64,000 nt of DNA, taken from Gossypium raimondii (lineage: Eukaryota; Streptophyta; Magnoliopsida; Malvales; Malvaceae). Each line of letters opens with the position of its first letter. The first letter of the stretch is position 1. Location: NCBI RefSeq assembly GCF_025698545.1, contig NC_068572.1:1-64000 (forward strand), given 5' to 3'. Of this stretch, positions 4,371 to 41,894 are shown piece after piece. The position numbers were made by a program, and so were the translations under genes. The notes beneath the pieces were generated by a model. That model saw only the letters and a list, made by a program, of their open reading frames with translations, was not told where the DNA came from and made no database searches.

Positions 4371-4760
4371 TTCCCATAAAAAAACATAGTTAGGGGGATT
4401 GCATAAATTATAAAAAACAGAAACAGAGGAGAAAACTTAGGATTTGTACCTCGCAAAAGTACACAGGAAACAAACAAAAAGAACAAACAGATCGAGATCA
4501 ATAGATTTGAAACACGGATCGAAACAGTGATGTCTAAACCTGAAAACCAAAACCATAAAATAGAAATGAAAAGGCAAAAGACAAAAACAAAAACAAAGAC
4601 AAAGGCAAAGAAATGAAAAACCAAACCCAAGTAAAGATTCATACCTGAAATCAGCCTCCGAAAAAGCAACCAAAAAGAAACAGACAGACCCATATCGATA
4701 GATTTCAAACACAGAGCGAAACAGTGAATTGTAAACCTGAAAACCAAAATCCCCATTTAT
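4371..4760 (-). promoter_or_regulatory. Decayed promoter/5'-UTR-exon module (copy b)
   Basis: On the minus strand the text 'CGGAGGCTGATTTCAG|GTATGAAT' (donor at 4,645/4,644) parallels the first-exon donor 'CGGAGACTCATTTCAG|GTATCAAT' at 11,983 and 14,141. Near 4,436 a degenerate telo-box (TTAGGATTT) is present. The minus-strand open frames here are Phe-rich artefacts of A-rich + strand sequence. There is no adjacent gene body, so this is an orphan copy of the leader exon and intron start. Confidence 0.45.
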
Positions 4761-5930: not shown

Positions 5931-5934
5931 TGTA

Positions 5935-6965
5935 GCTAATATATCAAACCTTTTGTATCCCAATAGCAGATCGGATTTTTTTGTATACAAACTTTGTTGG
6001 TAAGACATGCAATGGCCACAATATTGTAGCAATAGTTTTAGACCATAAGTAGTCGAACATGGATACAATATGTGAAGGTTCCTCCGAATTTCTTGTTAGG
6101 CATAGTCCCTATTGATCAAATAAAAATCAAAGGGCAAAACTGAGTTGAAACATCTGACTAACAAACATTAGAATTCATCCAGTTTGATAGTTTGGAGTGA
6201 AAAAAACAGTCAGAGGACCATATGAGTGCACCAACACTCAGTACATGTTACTTGGACTCAAGTGGGTGTGAGTAGAGGCACGCATCTTATATGGGTATGT
6301 TTGACTTTTTTTGGTAAGTTTTTCACTATATTTTAACCCAACTCTTCATTTTGCCTAAATAACTACTGTGTCTGAATTCATCTCCAACACATGCTCGGAC
6401 ATGGGCATCGAGATATGGTCCTCCAAGAGTCCTCCAAATACATGCAATCCTAGAAAAAACTGAAAATACTCAAGTCAGATGCCTATGTCCAACACTTACA
6501 CCCAAGTCCGAGTAACATAACCTTTTCATGTATTTGGAGGGTCATATGCTATACCCACGGCCGGGAATGTGTTGAACACGGATACTTCAAGAAAAATGAA
6601 AATTAAAGAAACACATGATGATTGTTTTTAATTTACTTTATTCAGTTTGGTCGATTCCACAGACTGCTAGACTAGTCACCATATTATGCAGAAAGCGTTA
6701 TCAGCATAACCCTATTGTCAAACGAATTCCCTGATAAGTAGAACCATGTTTAACCCGTACATTTAACAGAATTTTAACAATTTATACAAAGGCACAACTG
6801 CTTAAACAATTTCACCAGAAATGAAGTTATGTGGTCTTAGTTGAACTTTACGCATTATGTCCATAAAAGAAATATGGGTATCAGGTTAAACTGGCATCTA
6901 ATCCCCATTTATCTCAAGTTTTAGGGCAATAAATAATTAATTTAAGCCATGGGAGAGTGCATATG
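5935..6965. repeat. Direct repeat, copy 2 (partner 2,840-3,715)
   Basis: This is homologous to 2,840-3,715 over its whole length apart from an extra block of about 130 bp at 5,982-6,112. The copies are about 3.2 kb apart in the same orientation. The match ends just after 'AAGCCATGGGAGAGTGCATA'. Confidence 0.8.
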
Positions 6966-7440
6966 AACATTAAAATTGAAAAGAAAAGATATTGGGATAA
7001 GAGCATTACCGTGCAATACGATGAAGGGAATAGCGTGTCTATTTGGGATAAGAATCAATGTAATAGAGATTGACTGCAAAAGAGAGGCCATTGCTGGTGA
7101 AATCTTGCAGAGCCAGAGTTTCTTTCTTTCCCAAAGCATCCAACAAGAACAACCACAAAGACATCCATAGATTTGAAAAGACGAACCGAAACAATATTTC
7201 CTAGGACTGAAAACCCAAAATCTATGGATGAAGCAAGTGATTTCCATATCAGAAAAAAAAAAACAGAAACGATTGAGAAGGAAGAGAAGAAAACGGATGA
7301 GAGAGGAAAAATTTGAAGAGAAAGAGATAGTGAAGAATTGGGAAAGTGAAGGAGAGAGGATTTAAATTTCCAACGATGGGAAAGGAAGGGGATTTGAAAA
7401 GACTGATGAAAACGGGCAGAGGGGCTCTTCTCCTGCCAAC
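6966..7440 (-). promoter_or_regulatory. Decayed promoter module (copy c)
   Basis: Positions 7,330-7,420 ('GAGGATTTAAATTTCCAACG', 'ATGGGAAAGGAAGGGGATTT') parallel 12,210-12,255 and 14,370-14,410, the region upstream of the first-exon modules. The purine-rich + strand corresponds to a pyrimidine-rich leader on the minus strand. Small open frames at 6,942-7,247 (-) and 6,976-7,170 (+) overlap each other and are not convincing. Confidence 0.35.
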
Positions 7441-7479
7441 GGTAACTAGCTATTTAATACACTCATTTAATAAAGTGAT

Positions 7480-9015
7480 AATTGAGTTGTTTAGCTTTTA
7501 AATTTTTATTTAATATACTTATTTTTAATATTCTCATTGTCTGAATATATTTATTTTTAAAATAATACTATTTACTATATCAAATATATAAAGAGTTAAA
7601 AAGTTATATAAAGAGTTAAAAAGTAAGTCAAAATATTATAAATATTATAAAGGTCATATTAAAATTTAGTTGAAAAATTTTAATGTTTTGATAGTTAATT
7701 AATTAAAAGGACTAAATTGTAAAGATAAAATTTAATGGTCATAACATTATTTGTATCTAATGAATATAAATGCATGAAATGAGGGCCTAAAGTAGTAATT
7801 CAACCAGTTTAGAGGATAGTGGATGAATATGATTTGGCATTTGGTGAAATTTGGTTGAGTTTTTAAGGGTAAAATAGTAATTAGTCAATTAAATTAAATA
7901 AAACCAAAATGTTTTACCATCTTTACATTTTCTTCTTCACTGAATTGAAAAAGGAGAAGAAGTCATTCTTAAGCTTTAAGGTTCGGCCATGGTGAAAGCT
8001 AACATGATCAAGACCGAGTGAAAAATCAAATAGAATTCAAAATTACTAAAATGCCCCTATACTTTGTTATTTTTACAATTTAGTCAAGTAAGTTCGTATG
8101 AATTGAATTTCGTATAATGTTGATTAAATTAAATGTTAGTATATGATTGTATTGTGATTGAATCAATCTATATATGTTATTACGCAATTTATCTTGTCAA
8201 GAAACGATGGAAATTCAACGACGTACGATGACTATCGAGCCTCATTTGAACCTTAGAAATATATAGGATACAAATGATATGTCATTAGTGTTACCATATC
8301 TTGGGTGCTGGTCGTAAATGTCCTACCGATTGCTGAGTTCCGACATGTGTTGCGGATACTCGACAATTTGTGTGAAGAGCACAATGTAGCTACATTCCGA
8401 ACGACAACTTGTGTGAGCAAACCCAGGTTATCATGTTTCGGATGTTGGTCTTAAATTTCCTACCGATGACTGAGGTCCGACATTAGTTGCAGATACTCGA
8501 TAGCTTGTGTAGGTAGCATCGTGTAGCTTACATTCCGACCAACAGCTTGTTTGAGTAGACTCATTTTACAGTTCATGTCAACTACGACTATATGTTTATC
8601 ACACTTTGTGTGAGCTTTCCCGTATATTCGATATTATTCTAAGTGGTTCAACAGGTCTAAAAAGGGAAAGAATGGTAAGTATTCAAATCACTTATGTCAT
8701 GAATTTATGCCAATGAATGAAAAGGTAATGTTCAATGAAAGTATGTTTACGCTCATGAAATTGAAGATTTCAAATGATGTTGTTCATGTATATGACTTAC
8801 CTTATGTTATTTCAAGTAATTTATGAGTTGATACTATAACATGAGTTGTGGATGATACTTAGGCTTGTGCCAAGCTTATGATTGGATTATATCATGCTTA
8901 GTCTTAATGAAATACATTGAAACGATAAGTGTTTAAGTGGTAATACGCTTATGTAAATGAAAAGGGTATAAATTAAAGCATGTAATTTCTTATGAAATAG
9001 TTTATCATAAACCCT
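7480..9015. mobile_element. LTR-retrotransposon-like remnant with internal tandem units
   Basis: The composition is typical of long plant LTRs: 'AAAAGGACTAAATTGTAAAG', 'AAAATGCCCCTATACTTTG', a long non-coding stretch and no ORF. Positions 8,300-8,425 and 8,446-8,570 are two tandem, diverged units of about 140 bp. Each contains TACCGAT..CTGAG.TCCGACAT followed by GCGGATACTCG and ACATTCCGA. I cannot define LTR ends, primer-binding site or target duplication. It may be a solo LTR or fragment, and it ends where duplicated segment A begins near 9,020. Confidence 0.45.
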
Positions 9016-9437
9016 AAACCATGTAAAATTCAACAAGATAAACTATAAAGGTGAAGAAGGGATTCACCAAAAATATGCCAATGGAAGCGTAAAATATAAT
9101 ACTTGAACAGAGGTGCCAACAACATAATAAAACAAAATGCAGTCACAGATGACTCTGAGCAGCAAGGGGAAAAAGAAATCAAAGAATAAATTCCATGCTA
9201 CCTCTAGACAAGTTCTACTAAGAAAGGAAATTGAAATGAAAACCTAACTGAACTCAAGCATTACGGGACTTTGTTCCTTGACCTCCGTAAGATGTCTCAA
9301 GCACGAATCTAACGGTTTATTGCACATATAATATGCCGCATATTTTGCAAGTCATGCTATATAGTTCTTGATTCATTACAGACAACTTATACATCAGAAC
9401 ATTTCAAGATAAGAAACCACAAAGTAAAGTTCCCCAC

Positions 9438-9592
9438 CAATATCCTCCAAGGTTGAAGGTTGTACTCCTACTCTTACCTCCATTGGATTTACCTTCAGTC
9501 CCATCATCCTTCTTATAATCGTTTGGTCTAAGATCAGGACCAATATCCCTTACCCAACTTGCAGCATAAAGCCTAGAGGCCTCCTTCAAGAC
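9438..9592 (-). pseudogene. Orphan exon, copy A, of the gene at 17,317-18,492
   Basis: The minus strand after a TTCTTTAG acceptor reads VLKEASRLYAASWVRDIG and continues in frame for about 45 residues. Compared with copy B it lacks 8 nt between AGTACA and ACCTTC, which shifts the frame before the exon end. The donor reads GTGGGG where copy B has GTGAGG. The downstream terminal exon present in copy B is missing because copy A lacks that part of the segment. This is therefore a broken fragment. Confidence 0.7.
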
Positions 9593-10207
9593 CTAAAGAA
9601 GGATGACAGGTTTTTACTACTTATATACTAAAAATAAATGCCTCTTATTCCCTAAAGCATAGGCAAATAATAGGTTCTTGAGCATTATTTGACATTCAAG
9701 TGGTTAACCATCAAGTAAGCAGAACAGAAGATAAAAGTCATTTGATCATTTCAATATCCCAATGATCTAATTTCCACCCTGATCACCAGCTAGCATCTGT
9801 GAAATTTCAAATTTCCATTATGCTTCTTTAAAATTTGATCACTGGAACAAAAGCAAAAAAAAAATCTTAATAAATTCTTAGCTCTTTTACTTTGTTTTTC
9901 ATTTTTTTATAGAGCCATCTGAATGGCAGAAATGATGATAAGTAATCGAACTTCGAATTTGTACATTAAAATCGAAAATATAAGGGAAGAAGAGGGTAAA
10001 ATTTCCACAACATGACAACAGAACAATTGTATTACATTATTGCAAAAAACAGTACATGTGATGGTATTACAGCCAGCACAAGCGTGCTACAACCTAACCT
10101 GAAGACGACTTTGGACTAGAAGTATCGACAGAAAAACTAGTTGTAGAAGTTGAGGAATTATGGACAGCTCTTGTGTGGCTGATGCTTGGTTTAGTGAACC
10201 AAGTTGT

Positions 10208-10707
10208 TTACAGAAATTGTTTGTGAGGCCCCACATGGTTGCATATTAGCCTAATGTTTTGTCTCCCTCTCATCCATCTCAGCACGATCTTCATGTGCCT
10301 CTTGCTTGTAAGTCCTCTCAGTCCAACCTCCTGAACTCATAAACACATTTCTACTCCAATATGTCGAGCACAGGCAAGTAAAGCATGAAAAAAACAATAT
10401 CGTATGGAATTCAAGATCCTAAAATTATGCAACGATAAAACTGCACTGCCCTTCACTCTTGGGCTTGGCTTAATTAGATGTGGAAACAACAAATATAGAT
10501 ACACAATGAATACAGATTATAGTCTACTAAACAACTGACCTTGACTCGTTCCCAAGTATCACCGACGGTGAGGGGCCCATGCTCCTTGAGAATGTCAAAG
10601 GTGACTCTGCTTATGGTCTGCGTTTGCTCTAGCGACGTTTTCAACTCGATTGGCTTCATTTTCGGCTTGGGTTTCGTTGAAAAGTACCGAATCATACTCC
10701 CAAACAT
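10208..10707 (-). CDS. Small two-exon gene, probably mitochondrial, copy A, truncated by a stop
   Basis: Exon 1 (10,707-10,540) encodes 56 aa starting MFGSMIRYFSTKPKPKMKPI. Exon 2 (10,330-10,208) adds 40 aa (EVGLRGLTSKRHMKIVLRWM... then HKQFL) and ends at TAA. Splice sites are AAG|GTCAGT and TTCAG|GAGG. The short Ser/Arg/Lys-rich, acid-poor N-terminus suggests a mitochondrial presequence (inference). I recognise the sequence only as a conserved small plant protein and cannot give a function. After the TAA the same frame stays open for 36 more codons with Ser/Thr-rich, protein-like text, and from memory relatives continue 'HKQFLYTTW'. This TAA therefore looks like a Tyr-to-stop change that shortens an approximately 133-aa protein to 96. 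The ATG directly follows an acceptor (AAGCAG|GATG), so a 5'-UTR intron from the leader exon near 12,000 is likely. Confidence 0.7.
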
Positions 10708-11982
10708 CCTGCTTTTAATTTCATTTTATATTAATTGTATAATATTAATTAAATAATATTATAATTGCTATATATATCATGTCAATTTGCTTTTAATTCT
10801 AAAATATTTAACCCTCAACATTTATACACTATGACAACATTGAAAAAGGAAAATCAAACAGCACTTGTATAAGGTAATAATTATCAAACGATTGACCAAA
10901 GACAATCTTTAAATCCTGTAAGCTAACCCAAAACAGAAAAATCAAAAGAAAAAAAATTTATTCAGAACCAGCATGCATCAAATTAACTAAGACAATAAAT
11001 GAACAAGAAATTGGTTATGACATCATTAGAGAATATATCCAACACATCTTTTTATCAGTCTCATAAACCATCAACCAATAAGCAAATTAAAATTCTGTTA
11101 ATCAGTCTCATAGAACCTATTTACTTAAAAGATTACAACTCAATTTCCCTTCATGTAAGGCTAGGTAACACAGATGAATATAATTCTATCTTTAACCAAA
11201 ATCAGAGTACTTTCACCACATGGATATATCAATAATCACACAAAACTTCCCATTCAACTGATATACAGAGATACCATGGGTCTACCTAAAACTTCCAATC
11301 AAAATCCATTTGCAAACCATACCCAACATAACACAAACAATCCCAAGTATTTTAAAGAAAATATACCCAACACTTACTGACTAATGCAAGCACCCAGCAG
11401 TATGAAAAAGAAAATATATATGCATACACGAATCATGACAATCTCCACCGTATATAATCATGAAACCCAAATCGACAAAAACCTTTGCAATTAGCAAATC
11501 GGTTGAAATTCTCCAATTCTTATCAATATCAACAAGCATCCCAATTAGATTATTACTATTTTTTTAAAACTAAAGTACAGACTTTTTGAGAAAACTAAGA
11601 AACAGAATGTCACAACTCACAACGAATTAAAAAGACATTTTATTACCATCCAGAAAAACTAACAAATAAACTCTACATGCGTCACAACTCCCGCTGGGTT
11701 CCTAGAACCAAAATCAAGCCAACACAGATGCAGTAAACAATTTACATACGGATGCTTTTTGTTTAAGCAATTAGTATTCTGCTAAGCAAAGATTTAAAAG
11801 AAATAGAAAATAACACAAAAGCTATAATATTAAACAGAGGGAAACAAACAATCCAAAAATAAAGAACAACATATAGTATACGACAAACAAACAAAAATGA
11901 AGAACAAGACCGACATCTATAGATCTGAAAGACGAAACGAAACAGAGATTTCGAAAGCTGAAACTAAAAAAGAAATTGATAC

Positions 11983-12420
11983 CTGAAATGAGTCTCCGTT
12001 TAAGCAGCGAATTTCAAAAATCACAAAAACCAGAAACGCCAGAGAAAACATAGGGTTTCTCTCTCACGAAAACTCTCTTCCTACTATAGCGTGTGTTTTT
12101 TTGGCCTGTGGATACCCAAGGCTAAAATAGAATGACAGGAAAACGTTGAAAAGAGACCTAGGGTGAGAGAGAATCGCCGAAGAAATGAGAAACAATGGAT
12201 TGGATAGATATATTTGAGGATTTAAGTTTCGAATGATGGGAAGGAAGCTGGCCTGATCGGAGGTAAGACGCTGGAAAGTGTGTGGAAGCAGCGGCAGCGG
12301 TTTGTTAGAAAGGACAATAAAGGACGAAGAGAGAAAAAGAAAATTAGTAGAAGAAAGGGGGAAAGGGGGAGAGAAGAAAGGGAGAACCGAACGTGAGAGA
12401 GATGAAGGAAGAAAGAGTTT
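11983..12420 (-). promoter_or_regulatory. Leader (5'-UTR) exon and promoter of small gene copy A (module d)
   Basis: On the minus strand a pyrimidine-rich upstream region (12,420-12,200) is followed by a leader with a telo-box (AAACCCTA at about 12,051-12,058 on the opposite strand). It ends 'ACTCATTTCAG|GTATCAAT', a good donor at 11,983/11,982. The predicted acceptor is AAGCAG|GATG at 10,708, which would give a 5'-UTR intron of about 1.27 kb. Telo-boxes are established features of translation and mitochondrial-gene promoters in plants. The link to the 10,208-10,707 gene is inference from order and splice sites. Confidence 0.55.
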
Positions 12421-12689
12421 TTATAATTTATTTTAAAAATGGTTTGAATTTTATTTCATTTTTTAAAAATATCGTACTCTGGAAAAGTTATATTCAATCT
12501 TTATGGATTGAAGATACAATATTTTCTTAAATAGTATTTAGACCCAGATAAATTTAGGCCTGTTTTTCCAAGCTTTTGTTTTGCTTTGGGCCTATTTCGT
12601 TTTGGAGTCGGTCTTTTAGTCCTGACGGTTCGTGTTTTTGAATTTTAATAATAGCCCAGTATTTTCCTTCAAAAAAAACCTTAAACCAA

Positions 12690-12952
12690 CGCCGGGATAT
12701 CCTTGGAATGGGATATACCCGGCCGGGATATCCCTTCTTAGGATATCCCCAACCGGGATATACGCGGAATGGGATATCCCTACGTGGAATAAGTGTGACA
12801 GGTAGTCCGGTCCTGCAGCATAAAAAATCTGAACCGGACACTAAAAGAACTGAACCGGACAGGGGAAAACCTGAATCGGGATGGGATATGAAAGGGATAT
12901 CCCCAGAATAGCTTCTTCCGAGACGGGATATGACAAGGATATTCGTGAATTG
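12690..12952. repeat. GGGATAT/ATATCCC palindrome-rich block 1
   Basis: The block contains many units of the form GGGATAT followed within a few bases by ATATCCC (for example GGGATATCCC at about 12,726 and 12,770), spaced by 15-25 bp. It then has two CTGAACCGGACA-type units and a final GGGATAT pair. It is GC-richer than its surroundings. The 149-aa minus frame and 67-aa plus frame across it (Gly/Tyr/Pro-rich) simply reflect the repeat. The blocks at 14,690 and 19,800 have the same order of elements. Confidence 0.75.
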
Positions 12953-13743
12953 GAATAAGACAATCTTTAAATCCTGTAAGCTAACCCAAAACAGAAAAAT
13001 CAAAAGAAGAAAAATTTATTCAGAACCAGCATGCATCGAGAAATCAACCAGGACAATAAATGAACAAGAAATTGGTTATGACATCATTAGAGAATATATC
13101 CAACACATCTTTTTACCAGTCTCGTAAAACCATCAACCAATAAGCAAATCAAAATTACGTTAATCAGTCTCATGGAACCTATTTACTTAAAAGATTACAA
13201 CTAAATTTCCCTTCATGTAAGGCTAGGCAACACAGATGAATATAATTCTATCTTTAACCAAAATCAGAGCATTTTCACCATATGGATATATCAATAATCA
13301 CATAAAACTTCCCATTCAGCAGATATACAGAGATACCATGGGTCTACCTAAAACTTCCAATCAAAATCCATTTGCAAATCATACCCAACAGAACTCAAAC
13401 AATCCCAATTATTTTAAAGAAAATATACCCAACACTATCTGACTAATGCAAACACCCAGCAGTATGAAAAAGAAAACATATATGCATACACGAATCATGA
13501 CAATCTCCACCGTATATAATCATGAAACCCAAATCGACAAAAACCTTTGCAATTAGCAAATCGGTTGAAATTCTCCAATTCCTATCAATATCAACAAGCA
13601 TCCCAATTAGATTATTATTATTTTTTAAAACTAAAGTACAGACTTTTTGAGAAAACTAAGAAACAGAATGTCACAACTCACAACGAATTAAAAAGACATT
13701 TTATTACCATATAGAAAAACTACCAAATAAACTCTACGTGCGT

Positions 13744-13823
13744 CACAACTCCCACCGGGTTCCTAGAACCAAAATCAAGCCAACACAACTCCCACCGGGT
13801 TCCTAGAACCAAAATCAAGCCAA
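13744..13823. repeat. 40-bp perfect tandem duplication
   Basis: The unit beginning CACAACTCCCACCGGGTTCC occurs twice back to back with a 40-bp period. The corresponding place in unit 1 (near 11,683) has it once, so the duplication arose after the 2-kb tandem duplication. Confidence 0.9.
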
Positions 13824-14140
13824 CACAGATGCAGTAAACAATTTACATACGGATGCTTTTTGTTTAGGCAATTAGTATTCTGCTAAGCAACGATTTAAAA
13901 GAAATAGAAAATAACACAAAAGCTATAATATTAAACAGAGGGGAACAAACAATCCAAAAATAAAGAACAACATATAGTATACGATAAACAAACAAAAATG
14001 AAGAACAAGACCGACATTTATAGATCTGAAAGACGGAACGAAATAGAGATTTCTAAAGCTGAAGACCAAAAACCCTAAGAAAAACCCACTGAAATACAAG
14101 TAAAAAAGCATGGAGCTGAAACTAAAAAAGAAATTGATAC

Positions 14141-14600
14141 CTGAAATGAGTCTCCGTTTAAGCAGCGAAATTCAAAAATCACAAAAACCAGAAACGCCAG
14201 AGAAAACTTAGGGTTTCTCTCACGAAAACTCTCTTCCTACTATAGCGTGTGTGTTTTTGGCCTGTGGATACCCAAAGCTAAAAAAGAATGACAGGAAAAC
14301 GTTGAAAAGAGACCGAGAGTGAGAGAGAATCACCGAAGAAATGGGGAGCAATGGATTGGATAGATATATTTGAGGATTTAAATTTTGAATGATGGGAAGG
14401 AAGCTGGCCTGATCGGAGGTAAGACGCTGGAAAGTGTGTGGAGGCAGCGGCAGCGGTTTGTTAGAAAGGACAATAAACAAGGAAGAGAGAAAAAGAAAAT
14501 TAGTAGAAAAAAGGGGAAAAGGGAAGAGAACAAAGGGAGAACCGAAGGTGAGAGAGATGAATGAAGAATGTCTACAGCCCCAAACACTAAAATAAAAGCC
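14141..14600 (-). promoter_or_regulatory. Leader exon and promoter, second copy (module e)
   Basis: This is the same arrangement as 11,983-12,420. The donor TTTCAG|GTATCAAT is at 14,141/14,140 and the telo-box TTAGGGTTT is at 14,209-14,217 on the + strand. A pyrimidine-rich (minus-strand) region lies upstream. The 127-aa minus frame at 14,220-14,603 is an artefact of this pyrimidine-rich leader (Leu/Phe/Pro/Ser). It could act as an alternative upstream promoter for the small gene. Confidence 0.45.
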
Positions 14601-14689
14601 CAAAAATGCCAGCCCAACTATAAACCTTAAACCCTAAACTTAAGCCCAAGTCCTAAATTCACAGACCCCAAACTTAAATTTTCCTGAAA

Positions 14690-14940
14690 TATAGGATATA
14701 CCAAAACCGGAGTATACTTCAATAGGATATCTCCCAGTCGAGATATCCCTAGAATGGGATATCCCTGGCAATAATAAGGACAACAGGCATCTCGGTTCAA
14801 ACACGTAAAAAATCTGAACCGAGTACTAAAACAACTGAACAGGGATGGGATATGATGCGGATATTCTTGGAATCGTTTGTCCCGAAACGGGATATGATGG
14901 GATATCCCTGGCTAGAATAAGAATGAAAATTAACTAGAAC
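14690..14940. repeat. GGGATAT/ATATCCC palindrome-rich block 2
   Basis: This is a diverged copy of block 1 with several GGGATATCCC-type units (about 14,755, 14,890, 14,905), an 'AAAAAATCTGAACCGAGTAC' element and a 'CGGGATATGATGGGATATCC' run near its right end. Confidence 0.7.
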
Positions 14941-14950
14941 AAGACAATAG

Positions 14951-15469
14951 AAAAATCTGTTCCGATGCAAGCTAAGCCCAATAACACGGTACTTATTAAA
15001 ACGTTATTGTGAAATTATTTAATGTCAAATTCTCTGAAAATATTTAAAAACTCAGTATGATTTAATTAATATTTTCTTATTCCCTCAACAAATATAATGC
15101 TTTTACTTGTTGAAAAAGGAAAATCAGGAGACAATAAAAGGAAAGAAACAAGAAAATGTTTCCATTTATTTTCTGCTAATCAGTTAGGGTTTTAGGGTAG
15201 ATACTTATATAGTGTTAGAAACATATCTTGGCTATAAAATCTCATAAATAGGACTGAAAGATTTGTAAGAAAATATCCTTAAATACAGAGGAAGCAAACA
15301 ATCGAAAAAAATAAAACACATAACAAGCAATAAACTATCAAGAAGATGAGGACATCACAAGATTTAAAAAGACAAATATAAGCAATGTTTCATAAGGCTG
15401 AACACCAAAACCAATAACAAAAACACACTGAAAAAACTAAAAAAGAAGCATAAATCTGAAAACTAAAAC
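14951..15469. other. Non-coding spacer
   Basis: AT-rich sequence between the tandem duplication and leader-exon module f. Near 15,300-15,460 it weakly resembles the intron side of the other modules. No gene is visible. Confidence 0.4.
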
Positions 15470-15765
15470 AGAGATGAAAACTAAAAAAGACGTGAAAAGA
15501 AAAAGTTAGTAGAAGTGAAAATCATAACTGAAATTACAATCTGATGAAGGGTCCTGCTATAGCAAGTGTGTTTTTTTGACATGTGTCTACACAAAAGCTA
15601 AAAAAGAAATCAGGAAAAAAATGGAAAGAGACCCAGATAGAATCTGCATAGTAAAGAAAGGGAGGAAGAGAAAATAAAAAATAATAATAAAAACAAAAGA
15701 AAAAGAAGGTAAAAATCAGAATAAAGGGTGACAGAAGAGACACAATTTACAGGAGAAAGAAGGGT
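15470..15765 (-). promoter_or_regulatory. Decayed promoter/leader module (copy f)
   Basis: 'TGCTATAGCAAGTGTGTTTT' and 'ACACAAAAGCTAAAAAAGAA' at about 15,553-15,610 parallel 'CTACTATAGCGTGTGTGTTT' and 'ACCCAAAGCTAAAAAAGAAT' in modules d and e. The telo-box and the donor are not preserved. The 69-aa minus frame is an artefact of pyrimidine-rich sequence. Confidence 0.4.
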
Positions 15766-17310
15766 CTCCCATCAAGGATTTGGATAGACGTTGGAAGTTG
15801 TTTAATGTATCATTTAATTATCAAAAGACACTACGATACCTGTAGGCCTGGTCCAACCTGAACTTGGACGACGTTAAACTGAAAACAGTGATTTAAAACC
15901 AGGCCAAAAATATGATGAAAACCTGTAAGTGAATGCTCACGAATGTGTCATTGAGTGAGCTAAGAATCAATCATAATAGTAGGATAAAAACTCAGTGTTT
16001 GAATTGATTGCAACTTGTTAGAGTTAGTTTTTTTCAAGAAACACTTCCTTCCGAATGTCAAATATCCGGTATGCCCTCGAGTTTCAGCAGATGGCCAAGC
16101 CATGACTGTCGGAGAACTTGTATTGTCCCCCATACTTGCTTCACCAAAGACATTTCAGAACCAATATGTAGAATTAAAACATCAGTAGCACAAGTCAACC
16201 AAAACTCGAACACCAAGTAAGAACAGACAGCGCCAGGACATGGAAATACCAATGATCGCACAGAGAACTCAATAAAACAGAACAAATATCACCATCAAGC
16301 CATGAAAATACTTCCCTTCAAATGCCAACCTTACCTAGTACATCTGCTATCTCATTTCAAATGCCCTTCCGCTGGTCTTTCGTCCATTGCCTATGGTCTC
16401 CGGTAAGTAGTCATCTGTTACCCTTAGCAAGACCGCTAGTGAAAATAAATTAAACAAAAATAAAAAACACAGCCCTTTATATAGACAGCTCCTAAGACAA
16501 ACAAAAGAACCTCTATTCTCTCATTCTAACTTAGAATGTGCTACCCCACAAGTCTCCATGCATTACTTCAGGCCAATAACGGGCTACTTGCCAAAATGCA
16601 CAAGGACGACGCATCTTCTCCAACTTATAAGGGCAGGGGGTGTTTGCATTTCTATCCATTTTAAGATAAAAATGGGAAAGGTCAAAAGTAGTGCCTTTTG
16701 AATTGTTAAAAGCCAGACCAAGTTCCAGGTCACGACCAGAATTTGGTCGAGGGAAATTTGTTTTAAGAAACAAATAGAAAAAATATATATAAAAAGACCA
16801 AATTCTCGCACACTTTAACAGCTTTCATAGTATCATGCCTCTCATTTACAATAATCAAATCTCCATCTCTAATGCAGTGATTGAAAGATATCTTCATTGA
16901 GGAATCAATAAGCAATATCCTTAAAAGACCGAAAACACATTCAATTGAATACACAGATGATGTTGGACTAATATGCAATTTCTGTACCAAAATTTACTCC
17001 CAAAAACGAAAATATTTACCACATATCCAAAGTTCCATTAAGAATAAACTATCACCTAGAATGACAGGAAGACCCGAATTCATTAATATATATATATGTA
17101 TATAAATAGGACAAGAGCATCACCATTGTCAATGGAGATACCCATTATATCTGTAGTTTCTAAAGGTCACTTTATTAATACAGGAAAATTCTCAGGACAT
17201 GTATCATTCTTGTGATTTCATGCCAACCCAGCTCCACCAAATCTCTAAACTTGTATCTACAATAGGTATGCTAGAGAAGTACTCACATGCATCTCCGATT
17301 ATGCACTTAT
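15766..17310. other. Non-coding or decayed sequence with two protein-like minus-strand stretches
   Basis: Minus-strand frames at 16,531-16,773 (mixed-composition, ending 'EVMHGDLWGSTF') and 16,763-16,990 (contains 'RDGDLIIVNERHDTMKAVKV') look more protein-like than average. They may be exons of a decayed gene, but I recognise no family and no consistent splice frame. 16,918-17,050 is duplicated at 805-945. A (TA)n-like tract lies at 17,085-17,106. Confidence 0.35.
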
Positions 17311-17316
17311 CAGCCA

Positions 17317-18492
17317 TCAAGTTGAATTTTTATCAGTATTGCCTGCTTGCTGTGCTTTAGAAGAATCTTCCTTTTTCTCCATGACCTGCTGGATACCTTC
17401 TTGATATCCTTCTATGAAACTCTTAAGAGCATCTCTATATGCAGAAGCCCTTGTCATGTATAACCTCTGTAAAGCAGGCGTCAAAGTCTCCATCCCTCCA
17501 CTTGCAGCAATCGCTATTAAATCATTTCCATAGACAACATCAAAACAATGTAAAATTCAAAAAGATAAACTATAATACCAGGAAAATAAGAGAGAAAAAA
17601 GGGTGAGACGAGAGAAATTTGGCCTAAAAAATTTTAGTTGAAAAAGAGAAGCTGCACCAACAAGGTAAATGATGACAGAATAAGTGGAAAATTATCATGA
17701 GTTAAAAATTTCCTTTCTAAAATCAATTAAAGAAATATATATTAAGATGTTCAGAAAATAGAATGTTGGCAGATGGCACATCATGCTATCATTCTTCAGG
17801 GTGATTCCAAAACGAAGAAAAAAAAAGGTACCTAGGTAGCATAAGATAACGGTACAATCGTCACTGTAATGGCTCTAGACAATGAAACCTAGATAACTAA
17901 GACTGCTAGGAGATAAACAGTAATTTAATATCTTCCTTAACAACTGAACCTTGGCCTGGTGAAGAAGGGATTCACCAAAAATATGCCAATGGAAGCATAA
18001 AATCTAAGACTTGGACACAGGTGCCAACAACATAATAAAACAAAATGCAGTCACGGATGACTCTGACCGGGAAATTGAAAAAGGAAATTGATCCTCCAGA
18101 CAAGTTCTACTGAAAAAGGAAATTGAAATGAAAACCTAACTGAACTCAAGCATTATGGGACTTTGTTCCTTGACCTCCATAAGATGTCTCAAGCACGACT
18201 CTAACGGTTTATTGCACATATAATATGCCGCATATTTTGCAAGTCATGCTATATAGTTCTTGATTCATTACAGACAACTTATACATCCGAACATTTCAAG
18301 ATAAGAAACCACAAAGTAAAGTTCCTCACCAATATCCTCCAAGGTTGAAGGTTCAGTCTCTGTACTCCTACTCTTATCTCCATTGGATTTACCTTCAGTC
18401 CCATCATCCTTCTTATAATCGTTTGGTCTAAGATCAGGACCAATATCCCTTACCCAACTTGCAGCATAAAGCCTAGAGGCCTCCTTCAAGAC
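17317..18492 (-). CDS. Unrecognised gene, last two exons (copy B)
   Basis: The penultimate exon (18,492-18,330) begins after TTCTTTAG with VLKEASRLYAASWVRDIG, continues through 'RPNDYKKDDGTEGKS' and ends GATATTG|GTGAGG. The last exon (17,513-17,317) starts after AATAG. In phase it encodes AIAASGGMETLTPALQRLYM, then a helical segment with 'FIEGYQEGIQQVMEKKED' and a polar tail ending at TGA. The phases agree (163 nt, then G|CG). No upstream exon or start codon could be identified before the small gene's 3' region at 18,990, so the gene may be N-terminally incomplete or may share a transcript. It looks like a soluble helical protein. I do not know its function. Copy A (9,438-9,592) retains only one broken exon. 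Confidence 0.5.
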
Positions 18493-19590
18493 CTAAAGAA
18501 GGATGACAGGTTTTTACTACTTATATACTAAAAATAAATGTCTCTTATTCCCTAAAGCATAGGCAAATAATAGGTTCTTGAGCATTGTTTGACATTCAAG
18601 TGGTTAACCATCAAGTAAGCAGAACAGTACATAAAAGTCATTTGATCATTTCAATATCCCAATGATCTAATTTCCACCCTGATCACCAGCTAGCATCTGT
18701 GAAATTTCAAATTTCCATTATGCTTCTTTAAAATTTGTTCAATGGAACAAAAGCAAAAAAAAAAAATTCTTAATAAATTCTTAGCTCTTTTACTTTGTTT
18801 TCCATTTTTTTATAGAGCCATCTGAATGGCAGAAATGATGATAAGTAATCGAACTTGGAATTTGTACATTAAAATCGAAAATATAAGGGAAGAAGAGGGT
18901 AAAGTTTCCACAACATGACAACAGAACAATTGTATTACACTACTGCAAAAAACAGTACATGTGATGGTATTGCAGCCAGCACAAGCGTGCTACAACCTAA
19001 CCTGAAGACGACTTTGGACTAGAAGTATCGACAGAAAAACTAGTTGTAGAAGTTGAGGAATTATGGACAGCTCTTGTGTGGCTGATGCTTGGTTTAGTGA
19101 AGGCCCCACATGGTTGCATATTAGCCTAATCTTTTGTCTCCCTCTCATCCATCTCAGCACGATCTTCATGTACCTCTTGCTTGTAAGTCCTCTCAATCCA
19201 ACCTCCTGAACTCATAAACACATTTCTACTCCATTATGTCGAGCACAGGCAAGTAAAGCGTGAAAAAAACAATAATGCATGGAATTCAAGATCCTAAAAT
19301 TATGCAACGATAAAACTGCACTGCCCTTACTTCACTCTTGGGCTTGGCTGAATTAGATGTGGAAACAACAAATATAGATACACAATGAATACAGATTATA
19401 GTCTACTAAACAACTGACCTTGACTCGTTCCCAAGTATCACCGACGGTGAGGGGCCCATGCTCCTTGAGAATGTCAAAGATGACTCTGGTTATGGTCTGC
19501 GTTTGCTCTGGCGACGTTTTCAACTCGATTGGCTTCATTTTCGGCTTGGGTTTCGTTGAAATGTACCGAATCATACTCCCAAACATATTG
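17530..19590 (-). repeat. Segmental duplication copy B (partner 9,020-10,720)
   Basis: This copy is the longer of the pair. It holds about 390 bp (17,570-17,955) missing from copy A but lacks 28 bp at about 19,099. Similarity stops at the small gene's start codon, where copy B has its own upstream sequence (19,590-19,800) followed by GGGATAT block 3. Confidence 0.9.
18990..19586 (-). CDS. Small two-exon gene, probably mitochondrial, copy B, altered C-terminus
   Basis: Exon 1 (19,586-19,419) encodes MFGSMIRYISTKPKPKMKPI and, further on, 'VIFDILKEHGPLTVGDTWER'. Exon 2 (19,205-18,990) encodes EVGLRGLTSKRYMKIVLRWM and then 'RLICNHVGP'. A 28-bp deletion relative to copy A follows that Pro and removes the HKQFL segment. 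It shifts the frame into a Leu/Gln/Ser-rich tail and gives 127 aa in total. Exon 1 differs from copy A at several residues, with copy B looking closer to what I remember of the family ('TITRVIFD'). Neither copy has the presumed full-length end. Its upstream region differs from that of copy A, and an intronless or different leader is implied. Confidence 0.65.
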
Positions 19591-19799
19591 TCTCCCTAAA
19601 TTTGTAGTAGTTGAGTAGATGAGGATGAACTGTGTTTTATTTCATTTAAAACAAACTATAACAAGTTTAGTAATTGAGAGAACAAAAAGGAAAACAGATC
19701 GAAAAAAGGCATACCTTCTCTCCCTTTACTACTGATCGCCAATAATTCAAATAACAAAAGACCGAAAAATATCCAACTAATTATAATCAAAAACATAAA
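19591..19799. other. Upstream region of small gene copy B
   Basis: This sequence is not shared with copy A. The minus strand reads from a GC-poor upstream region into 'GGGAGACAATATG'. A minus-strand donor-like 'GAAGGTATGCC' at about 19,710 could mark a separate leader exon. Confidence 0.3.
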
Positions 19800-20075
19800 A
19801 CCCCGAAACAGGATATTCCGAGAATGGGATATACCGAAGCCGGGTTACACCTCTGCGGGACACCACCGAACCGGGCTATCCGTGGAATGGGATATCCCTG
19901 TGTGGAATAAGTATGACAGGTTCACCGGTCCAGACAAGAAAAAAATCTGAACCGGCCACTAAAACTCTTAAACCAGAGGCTAAAAATTGTGAACCTGAAT
20001 GAGAAAATACAGTCTATCCTGAGAATAACTTATTCCGAAAAGGGATACGACAGGAATAAAGTCGGAGCAGAATAA
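19800..20075. repeat. GGGATAT block 3, interrupted at its right end by a transposon
   Basis: The block has the same order of elements as blocks 1 and 2: 'GGATATTCCGAGAATGGGAT', 'GGGATATCCCTGTGTGGAAT', 'AATCTGAACCGGCCACTAAA', then 'CAGGAATAAAGTCGGAGCAG'. Its continuation is found after the transposon, from 23,732 on. The joined form exists at 1,698-1,860. Confidence 0.75.
20073..20075. other. Target-site duplication TAA (left)
   Basis: The TAA immediately before GGCCCCGTTC is repeated at 23,732-23,734 after the element. It is single in the empty paralogue at 1,722-1,724. Confidence 0.85.
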
Positions 20076-23000
20076 GGCCCCGTTCTTTATTGCGTTTTAA
20101 ATGGACTTTTGCCTTAAAAAGTCCTTTTCTCTTAAAAGGAACGCAGAACGACCTCCATCTGCTTTCAAAATTCACCATCTAAAACGTCATTTTCTCCAGA
20201 CGGAGAAGCTGAAAATTTCAGCATCTAAAAAGGTTGAAGTGCTTTTGGTTGATAAATGACCAAAATAACCTATCTTCTCCCCCTTGGAAAAACGTTCTTT
20301 CCTCTGCTGTGAAAGTTCTATACCCATTTTTTTCACATTTTCGCTGTGAAAGGTCCTTCCTGTTCTTTGTTCCTCTTCCGCAGTTGAGTACGTTTTCTTC
20401 TTCTTCTCTTTAGTTATTAGTTATGCTTTGTTTTTATATACTTTTTAATTCTGGCTTTTGTGCCTCTTTTGCTTTACTGTTTTGTGCCTCTACTGCTGCT
20501 TTGCTCTGCCTCTTTTGTTTTGTGCCTCTTTTGCTCGCTTTGTAACTCTTCCAAACTATTTTAGTTGATAAGAATAGAAGAAATATAGACTAAACCAAAA
20601 TTCGTATCCAAATTTCATATCGTTGCTGAATTTTCTGTATCTTTTGTATTTGAAAGTTCTGATGATGTTCTTTTTAATTGTTTCTAGGGTTTAGCTTTAC
20701 GATAAGATACCATGGCTGTGTTTCATTTTGGTTGAAGTTATCGTCGATTGTATTATTCCTACTTACCATCACTTATAGCGGGAAAGCAGTTTCTGATGTA
20801 GGGTAGATTTGTAGAAGCCTTCCTGCTTATAGAATACAGCTTTTTAAGGTTTACAGTAGGAACTTAGGGACAGGGATAGGAATCCAAAGAGGGTCGGATA
20901 TCGGAGGAAGATTGCTAGAATTTTCTGAAGCATTGGAATGACAAGGAAATAAACTCATGGTTTTACCCTTGTGCTGTCAATCGTCCCCTGAAGCATCATA
21001 GTAGTAGTCGAGAGAAGAAAGTAGAAATATGACAATGGAATTTCCATGAATTTATAGTAAACTCAAAGATAGACTCAATAGACCACTCTTTTTCTGTTCT
21101 TGGAAGCAAAGTTACAGAATGACTGAGAGCAGTCCACAAAGCAGAGAGAGCATATCTGCATTGTTGACTCATAATCAGAAAACCCTGCTCTGTATTGATA
21201 TATTTATTATTAATTCATTGTTCTATCAAAGAATATTCATTCATGCTAAAGAGAAGAGAAACAAAAGGCTGCCTGACGTTTTCATACATGTGTTCCAATT
21301 TCTCCTTTTCTTTTGTTTCAAGTTCTGGACCTAAGTGTAAGTTCCTACAAGAGGACCAAGCAGATCCTTCCACAGACCACTCATAATCTTATGAGTTGAT
21401 CAAAAATCGGTCATGCTTACAAAATGCAATATTCTAATATCTTATAATATAATTAATGCATACATACACATATATATATAGTAGAGTGCAAGTTTTTTTT
21501 CCCCTTAACTTCTTTATGTTCATTTTATAGGGTGTTGCTGTTGCACTGCCTGTTTATTTTGCTACACAGAGGTGAGAGTTTATTGAGACACCGGTCTTGA
21601 AATTCGGGGTTCAAAGTTGACAATCAAATGGTTAGAAAGTAGGGATTTCCAAAATTGTAGGTGGTAGGTCTGAATTTATTTGGCACAGTGTGTGAGAATT
21701 AATACTTAATGATAGGACAATAATCGTGGAATAATGGCTTGCTCATCTATTACTAGCTGATTTTCGTCTATTCTAGTCATGATAGCTGGATTAATTTGCC
21801 TGTTATGGTGCAGGTGTTAGCGTAAATGAACTTGAACTTATTTGTATGACGAAACTGTTAACTGTTTGGTTTTGTATTGTTTGTCAGCAAGTGGCAGGCA
21901 TTCAAGTTGGCAACTCTTTCTGGTTTTGCGGAGCCGCTCGGCGTTGTAATTGTTGGTAAGCGAATAGTAAAATTTAAAGATAAAAATTCTTTTGAAGAAG
22001 TTAGATGTTCATTTCTAACAGAAATGTAACATCGGTTATGAGCTATAAGCTGTGATATCATGAAAGTACTGCACATCCTCTTTCTTCTTTTGTGAATCGG
22101 GAATGGTTTTCTTTTTTGTTGAATATAGTTTGCATTTAGGTTGAATTTATAGCCTATTTGCTTTCAAGATTTCGGATTATCTTTGTTGATTTATCTTTGT
22201 TCTTGCACTGCAGCTTATCTGTTCCTGAGCAGCATAAGTCCCGAAATTGGCTTGTTAGGATCAGGTTTGTCGTACCATCAATCCCGAAGTACATGAGCTT
22301 GTAACCTCTTTCCATATGAACAAAAAGATGTTGTAAATTCCTGAACCAAGATGTTTTATTTTAGTTGATTTCTCTGATAATTTTAGCCAAACTATGAGAT
22401 GTCTTAAAAGCAAAAAGGATGAACAGCCCCAGTTTGCAATGTACATAATTTGTTTCCTTGTAACAACATGAACATTGAAAATGGGAAAAAAGAGAGGGGG
22501 TTACAAATAAATTTATGGATATTGTACTTTTATATACTTGACTGTTTAATTTCCTTACAAACCTCGTTTTTATTTCTTTAACAAGGTGCAAATTCAGAAT
22601 TGTTATATCTGATTTTTTATTGAATCTGTCATCTCTAATTGGCACATTTTTTTAGATTAGTATAGTTATGCAAGGTTAAAATATGCTATAAGTACTTGCA
22701 CTCTTAGTAAATTAAGAATTTAGTCCTTATGCTTTTATTTTCAAGAATTCAGATTTCAAAATTTTAGTTCAGTTGTTAACACTATTAACTGTATTTGTTA
22801 AATTGGTTAGTGTGATATTTTTAAATAAAAAGGTCCCTTTAATAACAATGTAATTAAAATGTTTCAATTAACTTGAATTTAACAAAATAATTTTATAAGA
22901 TTAACAATTTAAGTAAAATTTAAAATTAAAAAAATTAAATTTTAATCATATGCCAATTTAAATTTTAAAAGGTTCCAAGTTAATGCTCAAATGCAGATTA

Positions 23001-23731
23001 TATTTTACCTAAGTCATTCGATTTTGAGGTATTTTTTATCTAAATCATTCGATTTTAAGGATTTAGCTTTTCTTTGTCAAAATGTTAAATAGATCGAGTC
23101 GTTTAATAAATTTCGAAACACTTGTTTGGCTATTGAAAGGTTGAGTTGCCATACTATTGACCCTAACACCATGTTCATAACCAAATCACTTTTTCTTATT
23201 ATTGTGCTTTGATTGCTGTTTGTTAAAACAAGTCGATTGGGAAATGAAATGAAACTACCGAATTCTATGCAATTTCATCCATTTGTTTACTTGGCCAAAT
23301 TAGAAATGGATTCTTTTTTACAAATAATTTTTATAATAATACAATTGTGTCAATATCTAATTACAAATATTTAATTTTTATATTTAAATTTTTAAATATA
23401 GTTTATATATTCTAATTAAATTTTATAAATAATTAATATTAATTACTAAGAAATATTTACAATTAATATTATATATTAAAATATTAGCAATAAGTTATAA
23501 TAAATTATTTTTTATATTTTTGTTAAAATATCGTAATATTAACTAATTTGAACATTATTTAAATACATATTTGTTATTTTATAATATCATGTCTAAAATG
23601 GACATTTTATTCTTCAAAACCACTTTTTGACAGCAATACCAAACACTCAAATTTTTCAAAAGTACTTCTCAAAAGCATTTCTCAAAAGCACTTCTTAAAA
23701 GCATTTCTCAAAAGCAATGAAGAACTGGCCC
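20076..23731. mobile_element. PIF/Harbinger-like non-autonomous transposon carrying host gene exons (3,656 bp)
   Basis: The left end is GGCCCCGTTCTTTATTGC and the right end in reverse complement is GGGCCAGTTCTTCATTGC. The element is flanked by 3-bp TAA duplications. Three-base TTA/TAA duplications and GGGCC-type ends are established PIF/Harbinger (Tourist) traits. The right subterminal region (23,640-23,720) has four short tandem units of the AAAAGCATTTCTC type. I see no transposase (no DDE or Myb-like frame), so it would be mobilised in trans. It contains gene-derived DNA, namely three consecutive ZTP29-like exons with introns (21,531-22,262). A leader-like region with 'CTAGGGTTTAGC' at 20,680-20,760 may come from the same or another gene. 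The remainder (22,670-23,570) is AT-rich filler. Confidence 0.75.
21531..22262 (+). pseudogene. ZTP29: Captured fragment of a ZTP29-like zinc transporter gene
   Basis: Three exons join in phase. 21,531-21,571 encodes GVAVALPVYFATQ. 21,888-21,955 encodes KWQAFKLATLSGFAEPLG then VVIV. 22,215 to about 22,262 encodes AYLFLSSISPEIGLLGSG. These match the C-terminal half of plant ZTP29, a ZIP-family zinc transporter (its transmembrane helices after HNIPEG). Introns with GT-AG ends are retained, so capture was at the DNA level. The N-terminal helices, the metal-binding HNIPEG exon and the C-terminus are absent. A small in-frame deletion after SPEI removes residues. No start codon exists in frame, so it is a non-functional fragment inside the transposon. 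Confidence 0.8.
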
Positions 23732-24598
23732 TAAGAAAGTAAATTAACAACAGTAGGACAGTTAAAAATCTGTACCGGATAAAAAATTCTTTATGACTAC
23801 GCAGAAAAATCCAAAGCATTATGTCCAAATAACATAAAAGCAGGTTCAGATTGCGAATAATGCAACGTTAAATCTTCATAACACAATCTTTTATCTTAAT
23901 ATTTAGTTTAATTAAAATGTAGTAGTTTAAAAGTTTTTTTTAATATATTAGCTGGGACATTGCAGAGTATAGAATTTTCTTTCCAGTTATGTTATAATAT
24001 TAAAATCAACTCCCTAGCTTGTGGTATCCCATTTCAAATTGGAATACTTACATGTTTGGGCCCCTATTCCAAAAAGTGAACATTTTCTATTTTTCCCTCT
24101 TGAATTTTTTAAACTTCCTTAAATACCATACATTTTTTAAATAGGGTAAATTTATATTTAGTCCCTCTTAATTTTTTACCCTTTAAATTTATTGGCATTG
24201 ACGTATTTAGTCCCTCTTGGACATAAATATATTGGCATTGACGTATTCGAAGAAAGAACTTCAGAAGCCTTATGATATGTGGTCATTGATTGATCGCGGA
24301 TAAAATCTGATGATAGAGAAAACAATAGACAGTTAAACTTTCGGCATTACCAAGTTCTGATGGGCAACAATAGTGTAATTATACAGAAACCCGACAGGCG
24401 AAGAAGAAAATATGAATATTGTTAAAGTAGAAATATAAGACGGAACTGGTTGAAGATGATAAGATGCCTTATCACCGAAAATGCGAAAAACATCCAGTCC
24501 CATAGCTTTGTCGAGTTCCTAACAAAAGGTAAAAACACGATTCAGTAGGCACACAAACAACATCAGCAAAAAGGAAAATAAGTCTCAGGTCTTGGTTT
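23732..24598. other. Right part of interrupted repeat, then spacer
   Basis: 23,732-23,870 is the continuation of the repeat shared with 1,722-1,855. Beyond it the sequence is AT-rich, with two short direct copies of 'AAATATATTGGCATTGACGT' text near 24,190 and 24,225. No gene is seen before the terminal exon at 24,599. Confidence 0.55.
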
Positions 24599-36512: not shown

Positions 36513-39500
36513 TCAATCCGATTCCCCCCCTCGATCCCTCCCACTCTGATCTTCTGCATATTCTGGGACTCCCTCAACCAGGTATAATATTCGTTTATCC
36601 CTCAACGTTGCTTTTGCTATCATATGCGCAAGGTTGTTTACTGCTCTTGGAACATGTTCAAATCTGCATTCCTGGAAACTTGATTGTAGCTTATAAATAT
36701 CACTGATGTAGGCACACACCTTTGATTTATCTGAGATATTAGATCTGCATTTCTTTATTATCGATAGTGAATCTCCTTCAATAATGATTTTTCTCCATTT
36801 CATTTCTTTACCTATTTTGATCGCTTTCCGGCTCGCGAGCGCCTCTGCCGCAAAAGTGGATGCCACCTGTTGGTAAATCATCGAGCATGAGAGTAAGACC
36901 TTGCCTTCGTTGTCTCTAGCCACAATTCCCGTAGCCGATTGTTTACTATTTCCGTCATATGTTGCATCAAAGTTTATCTTCACAATCTGGTCAGGTGGCT
37001 TCTTCCATTTGCTTGTAGATTTATAAGATTCTGCTTTACTTTTTTCTATCCCATCCAACTCTTGTATGTAGCTACTAACAAATCTACTTATTTTTTTTCC
37101 AGATTTGCTCACTTTATTATGCACTCTATTATTTCGGTCTCCCCAAATAGCCCATAATGTACAGCAAAACATCCTACACTGAGATTCCGAGTTCTTCACA
37201 AAAACTTCGGTGAGCCACTCTGCAAACTCCATCTGTTGTTCTTGCACCAAAGCATTACATGGCAATTCCTTCTATACTGATTTTGACACAGGACATTCGC
37301 GGAAATTGTGATTTATACTCTCTGAACCAACTCCACATCGTGGACACACTGTAGTGTTTATTAGCTTTTTCTGAAATAGATTAACTCGTGTAGCTAAAAA
37401 ATTCCACGATATCTTCTAGATTGTAATTTTGAGTTTTAAGGGAAGATTTAGCAACCATAATTTCCTGAAGAATTCATTGTAGCCTTCTTGTAAAGCATAA
37501 GCTCTAGGGTCATCCTCGATATTCTGTAATAGTTTATAGGAGCTACGAACTATGAATTCACCTGACGCGTCAGCACTCCAGACCCGGAAGTCATCATGGG
37601 GATCATTTGCCAATGGGATACCAATAATCTTCTCCGCTACATCCTCTGGAAAGGTAGAAATTATCAACTCTTCCTTCCATGTTCTGTTATTTTGATTGAT
37701 TACATCGGCAACTTTACAATCGTTCAAATTCGTGATTATAGCTAATAATCTGTTTCTTCCCACATCAGGGATCCAATTGTCGCGGCCAACTGTAATTAGT
37801 TCCCCCTGGCTACTCTCCAGCACATACCTTCCTTTAAAATACTCTTTGTAGCCCAAATACTTTTCCACGTATACGAAGCATTGTTCCCCAAATATGAATC
37901 TAGGAAATTATTATTCGGGAAATATTTTGCTTTTAAAACTTGAGCTAATAACGAATCTGGATAGGTCAAAATTCTCCAACCCTGTTTAGCTAATAAGGAG
38001 ACATTAAATTTAGCCAAATCTCTGAATCCCAAACCACCTTCTCTTTTAGACCGGCACAAGTATGTCCATTTACACCAATGAATTCCTTTTCTCCCATGAG
38101 CTTTTTGCCACAAGAACTTAGCAAAAATGCCTTCTAAATCTCTGCAAAAAGACTTCGGTAGCAAAAAACACGACATTGCATATGTTGGAATAGCCTGTAG
38201 GACCGACTTCATAAAAACTTCATTTCCTCCTTTCGACAACATTCTGGTGCTCCACCCATCGATTCTGCTGTAAATTTTCTCTTTGAGATATTAAAAAGAT
38301 CCCTTTTTCCGTCTGCCCACCACATTTGGAAGTCCTAGATATCTATCCATATTTGTTGATGTTCGAATCCCCATAATTACCGAGACTTCGTTCTTTTTAT
38401 CTTCTGTAGTCTTTGTACTGTAAAAGATAGTAGATTTGTTAAAATTGACTCATTGACCGGAACTTTTACCATATTCCTTCAAAATTTCTTTTAGCACCAT
38501 TGCCCCATTCCTGTTGCTTCCCCAAACAAAATACAATCATCTGCAAAGAGTAGATGTGTAATTTCTGGGCCTATTCTACTTGCCTTTGCTCATTTTAACA
38601 ACTTTTCCTTCGATGCCATTCTCATCAAGGCTGATAATCCCTCACTACACATCAAAAAGAGAAAATGGCTCAAAGGATCTCCCTGTCTCAAACCTCTTGT
38701 TGGCTTAAAGCTTCTCCCACAACTCCCATTAGTATTCACAACATAGGACGTAGTAAAAATGCATTTCATGACCAACTCTACCCATTCAATATCAAAACCC
38801 ATACATAACACGACTTCTTTTAAATAGCCCCATTCAACCCTATCATAGGCAAAATCTAAATGTATCGAGTTTAACAACCATATTTTCCCTATTATTTTTT
38901 ATCTAAATGTATGCAAAATCTCATAGGCAAGAAGCACATTATCTGTAATAAGCCTTCCTGGGACGAACACACTTTGAGCTGCATCAATACACCTACCAAT
39001 ACAAATTTGAAGTCGATTTGCAATTGTTTTCGCCACCACTTTATAAAGAACTGAACATAAACTGATAGGTCTAAAGTTTGCTAAGCTAGTTGGGTTAGGG
39101 ATTTTTGGAATCAGCACAATCTCTGTTTGATTGAAAGGACCAAAATTTTTACCTTCATTAAGAATACCCAGACAGAAATCAACAACTTCCTTGCCTACAA
39201 TGTACCAAAATTTCTAAAAGAATAATGCTGGAAAACCATCCCGACCTGGTACTTTTGTGGGACCCATTCCTTTCAAAGCTTCGTGAACTTCTTCTGCTGT
39301 AAATTTCTTCTTCAAGCCACTGTTCATATCAACCGAAATCTTACTATCGATACCTGTTAGAAGATGAGAAGGATCTCCTACTTCACTTGATGTAAATAAG
39401 TTCTGAAAGTACCTGGTAGCCACTTCATTAATCTCACTAGCTTCATTAGCCTCTCTCCCATCACCCATATCTAACTTTGAAATTGTATTAATTTTCCTCC

Positions 39501-41829: not shown

Positions 41830-41894
41830 CCTAAGCCGCAGAAGGTACTGCTTTCTCTAGGACACCACGAAGCGCTCTTGGGAGCACAGAGAAT

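Follow-up and report, generated by a model that had tools for sequence, protein, structure and literature searches.

The window, by which we mean the whole 64,000-bp stretch that we analysed (positions 1 to 64,000 of contig NC_068572.1, here C8, of Gossypium raimondii), carries a non-autonomous PIF/Harbinger element of 3,656 bp at 20076-23731. The element starts with an 18-bp terminal inverted repeat (20076-20093, plus strand), 15 of whose 18 bases pair with the opposite end, and finishes with an 18-bp repeat on the minus strand (23714-23731) that shares a joint end pattern with it. A 3-bp target-site duplication, TAA, is found on both sides (20073-20075 and 23732-23734). Since we derived the joint end pattern from the two element ends, their 0 mismatches are true by construction; at up to 3 mismatches the pattern occurs at two sites in the window, both of them element ends, and at least two sites were also present in 8 of 100 shuffles of the window searched at the same tolerance (shuffle mean 0.37).

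A second, insert-free copy of the target lies in the window at 1694-1861 (plus strand). Specifically, the flanks of the element minus the insert align with it over 171 columns at 90.6% identity, with a single TAA at the insertion point; about 31 bp of the alignment (27 identical) lie to the left of that point and 140 bp to the right. Because this related empty site has one TAA and no insert, the whole stretch between the ends arrived as one unit. The longest stop-to-stop frame within the element is 101 aa, and the element contains no transposase frame. These observations agree with a sequence-only reading of the locus, which had described a 3,656-bp insertion with matching ends and a TAA duplication, devoid of a transposase frame and non-autonomous.

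Other parts of the window have features of their own. Positions 1-20000, at the start of contig C8, contain long direct repeats, among them 9050-10707 and 17958-19586 (90-98% identical, 8.9 kb apart) and 11065-12359 and 13127-14515 (95-96%, about 2.1 kb apart). A probable LINE-type retrotransposon lies at 36516-41856 (minus strand), where the frames include DUF4283, zf-CCHC_4 and RVT_3 domains. At 50150-50445, within a kilobase of 20% GC, two inverted arms of 148 nt adjoin each other with 70% complementarity.

A family with common ends and a transposase-bearing relative

We searched the assembly that contains the window (750.8 Mb, 281 contigs); our genome DNA searches score best candidates only (40 for the first 201 bp of the element and 40 for the ZTP29-like segment described below), and copy numbers are lower bounds. 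The first 201 bp returned at least 40 scored matches, one being the window itself and the other 39 having identities of 75-92%, and these best 40 are spread over 12 of the 13 contigs C1-C13 and one further contig. Exact matching of the joint end pattern across the whole genome gave 242 places (130 + 112), compared with 0 + 0 for the reversed control, and 3'-type ends predominate among the 100 places listed. Some of these 100 places form pairs of oppositely oriented ends separated by about 640-690 bp (e.g. C2:4896882/4897538, C3:27063922/27064614 and C7:12603672/12604313), which suggest a family of short elements with a 3'-type end at both sides.

Twenty stretches were fetched: the likely donors of two captured genes (L019 and L038), a sibling copy (L020) and 17 family elements (L021-L037), which were chosen for matching the window element and are not a random sample. 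All 17 match the 5' terminal block of the family (20076-20607, plus strand) at 80-95%, the matches beginning at or near its start and reaching 20531-20582 or beyond. The 3' terminal block (23319-23731, plus strand), which makes up the final 413 bp of the element, is common to most of the family. The elements have the same ends and differing interiors, by which they can be grouped; the search for copies with these ends and other interiors, which the sequence-only reading had proposed, thus turned up many. Matching 3-bp duplications (TAA, TTA, TCA, GTA or TGA) flank 14 of the 17 elements scored for this feature, the exceptions being L025, L027 and L037, where about 2% per element is expected by chance under assumed AT-rich base frequencies. 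The elements scored here exclude L022, L028 and L031, in each of which one end was estimated or not found, as well as L020, which has lost its 5' end, and L039 and L041, which have no clear 5' end.

The PIF-type transposase domain DDE_Tnp_4 has at least 168 matches in the genome, and two of these sit 821 and 827 bp before a family end (these two are L040 and L039; among the 100 end places listed). L040 is a 4,891-bp element with TAA on both sides that contains a Myb_DNA-bind_3 (Myb/SANT-like) frame (1e-24) and a DDE_Tnp_4 frame (5.4e-12); these frames were read piecewise and not joined, and the transposase is a predicted one. The 3' terminal block of the window element is 91% identical to the last 407 bp of L040. 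L039 agrees with L040 at 93% of positions across 3.5 kb, its only 5' end candidate being a poor one with 4 mismatches and CTA on both sides. A further relative, L041 (C3:13132500-13138900), is 91% identical to L040 in its 3' half and has more than 2 kb of extra 5' DNA.

Judged from these comparisons, membership of the PIF/Harbinger superfamily, to which the sequence-only reading had already assigned the element, is supported by the 3-bp duplications, the family-wide short terminal inverted repeats and the predicted Myb-like and DDE_Tnp_4 frames of the relative L040. An L040-like relative would have supplied the Myb-like protein and the DDE transposase that acted on the ends of the element and moved it. 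L040 itself may not be the exact helper because its 5' end is only 74% like that of the window element over about 105 bp.

Host DNA from two genes

Window positions 21396-23228 match C8:1368801-1371393 (L019), a locus 1.35 Mb away on the same contig. We tentatively take the donor gene to be ZTP29-like; Pfam assigns it only to Zip (7.4e-18), and its best match in NCBIfam is ZupT, at 162.5 bits against a cut-off of 252. It comprises 12 ordered homology blocks from start to stop, as counted with a ZTP29 probe. The left part of the match (21396-22283, plus strand; 888 bp) is 96% identical to C8:1368801-1369697 and contains exons 8-10 together with introns. Exons 8 (21531-21571) and 9 (21888-21955) are identical to the donor, and exon 10 (22214-22264) differs from it by a 6-bp in-frame deletion and substitutions. 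Consistent with the claim of the sequence-only reading that three consecutive, in-phase exons of a ZIP-family gene are present with their introns, the window exons match blocks 8, 9 and 10 of the donor gene, have AG/GT borders and keep the reading frame. The 54 residues joined from these exons match Zip in Pfam with an E-value of 0.086, which is below the cut-off for acceptance, and Ycf9 is ranked above it.

At the junction 22283/22284 the window copy is without 781 donor bases (L019 5699-6479), which hold exon 11 and most of exon 12. The 3' part that follows (22284-23228, plus strand; 945 bp) matches C8:1370479-1371393 at 84% with gaps; it starts with the last 21 bp of donor exon 12, including the stop codon (22284-22304), and continues for about 0.9 kb beyond the stop. 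The K2P distance from the donor, based on substitutions only, is 0.026 in the left part, 0.051 in the right part and 0.071 at the far right. The higher divergence on the right could reflect another donor copy; an unconstrained flank accounts for it too. Alignment to the parental locus places the capture breakpoints at 21396 and 23228, inside the element ends, and homology crosses neither end; we could thus reject a continuation of the ZTP29-like homology through an element end. A genome search with 21396-22283, in which the best candidates were scored, recovered the window and the donor and, apart from these, only 72 bp in a sibling copy on C11. Within the captured flank, 22671-22895 also matches L019 2528-2771 and L025 9418-9663 (outside the L025 element) at 67-69%, and is probably a dispersed repeat of the donor flank.

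The sequence-only reading was right in identifying captured ZTP29-like exons; it missed the continuation of the host DNA to 23228 and also a second capture, at 20608-21109 (plus strand). This second stretch corresponds to DNA upstream of the first coding exon of a gene on C7 (L038, at 44.79 Mb), which we tentatively take to be FLX-like; the FLX-like piece gave no Pfam family above the cut-off. It consists of three pieces, 20608-20710 (95% identical to L038), 20704-21066 (97%) and 21058-21109 (91%), and lacks the donor sequence that lies between these in L038. When the FLX-like piece of L034 was used for a search at the protein level, 19 matches resulted, the best of which, after L034 itself, is C7:44789443-44789751 (92%); this lies in L038 in an open frame of 204 aa with the first coding exon intact. 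Family ends were looked for in L038 and none were found. We refer to L038 as the likely, not the proven, donor because the protein search gave other FLX-like matches, such as C5:55441792-55442099.

L038 DNA is present in 13 of the 19 elements examined and starts at the identical donor base, 1851, in nine of them, and the FLX-like capture is therefore common to a large part of the sample. The pieces are out of order in six of these 13 elements (L028, L031-L033, L036 and L037). In L034 one FLX-like stretch is doubled, and this element also has part of the first coding exon and the tail of a transposase frame. When both strands were compared, 32 of 33 FLX-like matches ran one way, the exception being 43 bp in L034.

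The remaining interior of the window element has other affinities. The segment at 21108-21294 (plus strand) is common to another family element, L042 (97%), to C1:44191425 (96%) and, in part, to the C11 sibling (97%), and the segment at 21265-21393 (plus strand) is common, at 95-97%, to the 5' region of L041 and three other places in the genome. By such affinities at least five blocks can be told apart in the window element, which is a patchwork.

The C11 sibling and the probable route of capture

The only sibling copy of the ZTP29-like capture that we found by genome search among the best candidates is L020 (C11:6014500-6024400), which retains exons 10-12. Both copies have the same right donor breakpoint (L019 7394), followed by a 90-bp stretch (23229-23318 in the window, plus strand) that the genome search matched elsewhere only in L020, and both have the same join to the family 3' block. 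Because these three features are shared, we regard the two copies as products of a single capture. One capture spanning at least exons 8-12 and the flank, with different later losses, best explains them: one product with exons 8-12 and the 3' flank would have given rise to the window copy and the C11 sibling, each of which would then have lost different exons. The insert-free target and the sibling with the same 3' join indicate that the captured DNA was mobilised as part of the element. L020 is probably immobile now because its first 90 bp or so, at the 5' end, are gone. It sits between two 1.5-kb direct repeats that are 98.7% identical (936-2444 and 6166-7679 in reverse-complement coordinates) and that begin at its 3' end plus TAA; its 5' join has a small repeated filler. 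This arrangement would fit a scenario in which the element was duplicated along with its flank and the first copy was then excised precisely.

We consider it very probable that the window element is a non-autonomous Pack-type PIF/Harbinger transposon, moved by a helper transposase acting in trans, that acquired host DNA through repair with template switching and whose captured exons are most likely non-functional passengers. Observed directly are its ends, the TNA-type 3-bp duplication, the empty target, the family of varied interiors, the transposase-bearing relative and the likely donors for two genes. Host DNA would have entered by copying during gap repair in a family element, in the course of which the polymerase would have switched template via short homologies. 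A 72-base filler in L020 (4352-4423 on the reverse strand), which we selected after inspection, bears on this point: 63 of its bases fall within four exact matches to the ZTP29-like donor, all but the first of which step backwards on one strand with overlaps of 4 and 3 bp, and a further backward step leads into the collinear block. In controls, 200 shuffled donors gave a mean coverage of 0.5 bases and a maximum of 12, and L038, L040 and L042 each gave 0. The filler could postdate the capture. By eye, the two gaps within the FLX-like piece of the window show 4 and 9 bp of border homology, and the window borders at 21396 and 22283 show no microhomology. The six elements with out-of-order FLX-like pieces may represent one or two events because those elements are relatives. 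Together, the filler and the FLX-like pieces lean towards repair synthesis with template switching; they do not prove the route by which the gene initially entered.

An unlikely but serious alternative is that one family copy inserted to the left and another to the right of the gene pieces, after which the inner ends disappeared and the whole stretch moved as a unit. This mode of origin has been proposed for Pack-CACTA elements and extended to Pack-PIF elements (PMC8903248). It would suit the patchwork make-up of the element, parts of which come from stretches of other family members, the location of the ZTP29-like donor on the same contig and the lack of microhomology at 21396 and 22283. However, five or more blocks of different affinity would require several rounds of such fusion, no remnants of inner ends are present in the window at up to 3 mismatches, and the L020 filler is of the template-switch type. 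It is far less probable still that the element is a functional chimeric gene, kept by selection, in which FLX-like upstream DNA drives the ZTP29-like exons. The exon borders are intact, exons 8 and 9 are unchanged and the FLX-like DNA lies 5' of the exons in the same orientation, but only exons 8-10 of 12 are present, exon 10 is altered and exon 11 absent, no frame exceeds 101 aa, and we estimate that 109 bp would stay unchanged by chance in about 6% of cases at 2.6% divergence. We give next to no credence to a gene duplicate lying by chance between two repeats, despite donor and copy being on one contig 1.35 Mb apart, and we rejected both its forms, a retrocopy on the grounds of the retained introns and a plain segmental duplication on those of the insert-free target with one TAA, by which the whole stretch between the ends arrived together, the C11 sibling having in addition the same join to the family 3' block.

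Repair with template switching, the reading that we prefer, may extend beyond this one element. We tentatively propose, with rather less than even confidence, that the PIF elements of this genome pick up host genes one after another, via repair with repeated template switching. On this view an FLX-like capture would have been rearranged throughout the family before one lineage acquired stretches of other family elements as well as the ZTP29-like gene, and backward steps with 3-4 bp of homology would be the scars.

Relation to known gene-capturing elements

Pack-MULEs are non-autonomous carriers of host gene pieces in the Mutator superfamily and have longer target-site duplications. The window element likewise carries host gene pieces, but with a 3-bp duplication and a PIF-type relative. 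Capture by PIF/Harbinger elements, which the sequence-only reading had called rarely documented, is already in print for grapevine (PMC2528002) and, as Pack-PIF, for maize and rice (PMC8903248), so that claim has to be trimmed; the element is a further, unusually well documented case of a known phenomenon. The Pack-PIF elements that Gisby and Catoni (2022, PMC8903248) describe from maize and rice are similarly non-autonomous, mostly have TTA or TAA duplications and carry pieces of host genes, with more than one gene per family. Members of the maize family described there have a mean length of 535 bp and contain gene fragments of 163 and 58 bp, whereas the window element, at 3.7 kb, has 888 bp with three exons and introns, another 945 bp from the 3' end of that gene and, from a second gene, upstream DNA. 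That paper proposes the fusion of neighbouring insertions, and its main text has no words beginning with repair or template.

The Pifvine-3 transduplications of grapevine (PMC2528002) are also PIF elements, with long extra 5' regions that match exons and introns of the genome and are in some cases common to several copies; there the extra DNA lies beside canonical coding regions, whereas in the window element the transposase region is gone. For animal Pack-TIRs (PMC8277862), capture has been explained, as here, by the filling of gaps with template switches at short microhomologies; these are animal elements, and PIF and Harbinger are absent from the main text of that study. A 2026 review (PMC13317346) mentions PIF once and Harbinger, cotton and Gossypium not at all, and a paper on a G. 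raimondii transposable element database, with 435 PIF-Harbinger elements, has 0 occurrences of captured or Pack (PMC5467567). Among the literature matches listed, no title concerned captured genes in cotton PIF elements, which does not prove that there are none.

The way in which DNA transposons acquire genes continues to be disputed. In this genome, likely donors, an empty target, a sibling with the same capture and a transposase-bearing relative occur in one assembly, so that breakpoints can be read base by base and, because all components are together, gap repair and the fusion of neighbouring insertions can be tested against each other in plant PIF elements. The gene annotation of G. raimondii may contain transposon-borne gene pieces, and users of it should be warned accordingly. 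If the serial template-switch reading is true, plant PIF elements would capture genes mainly through gap repair and not through the fusion of neighbouring insertions.
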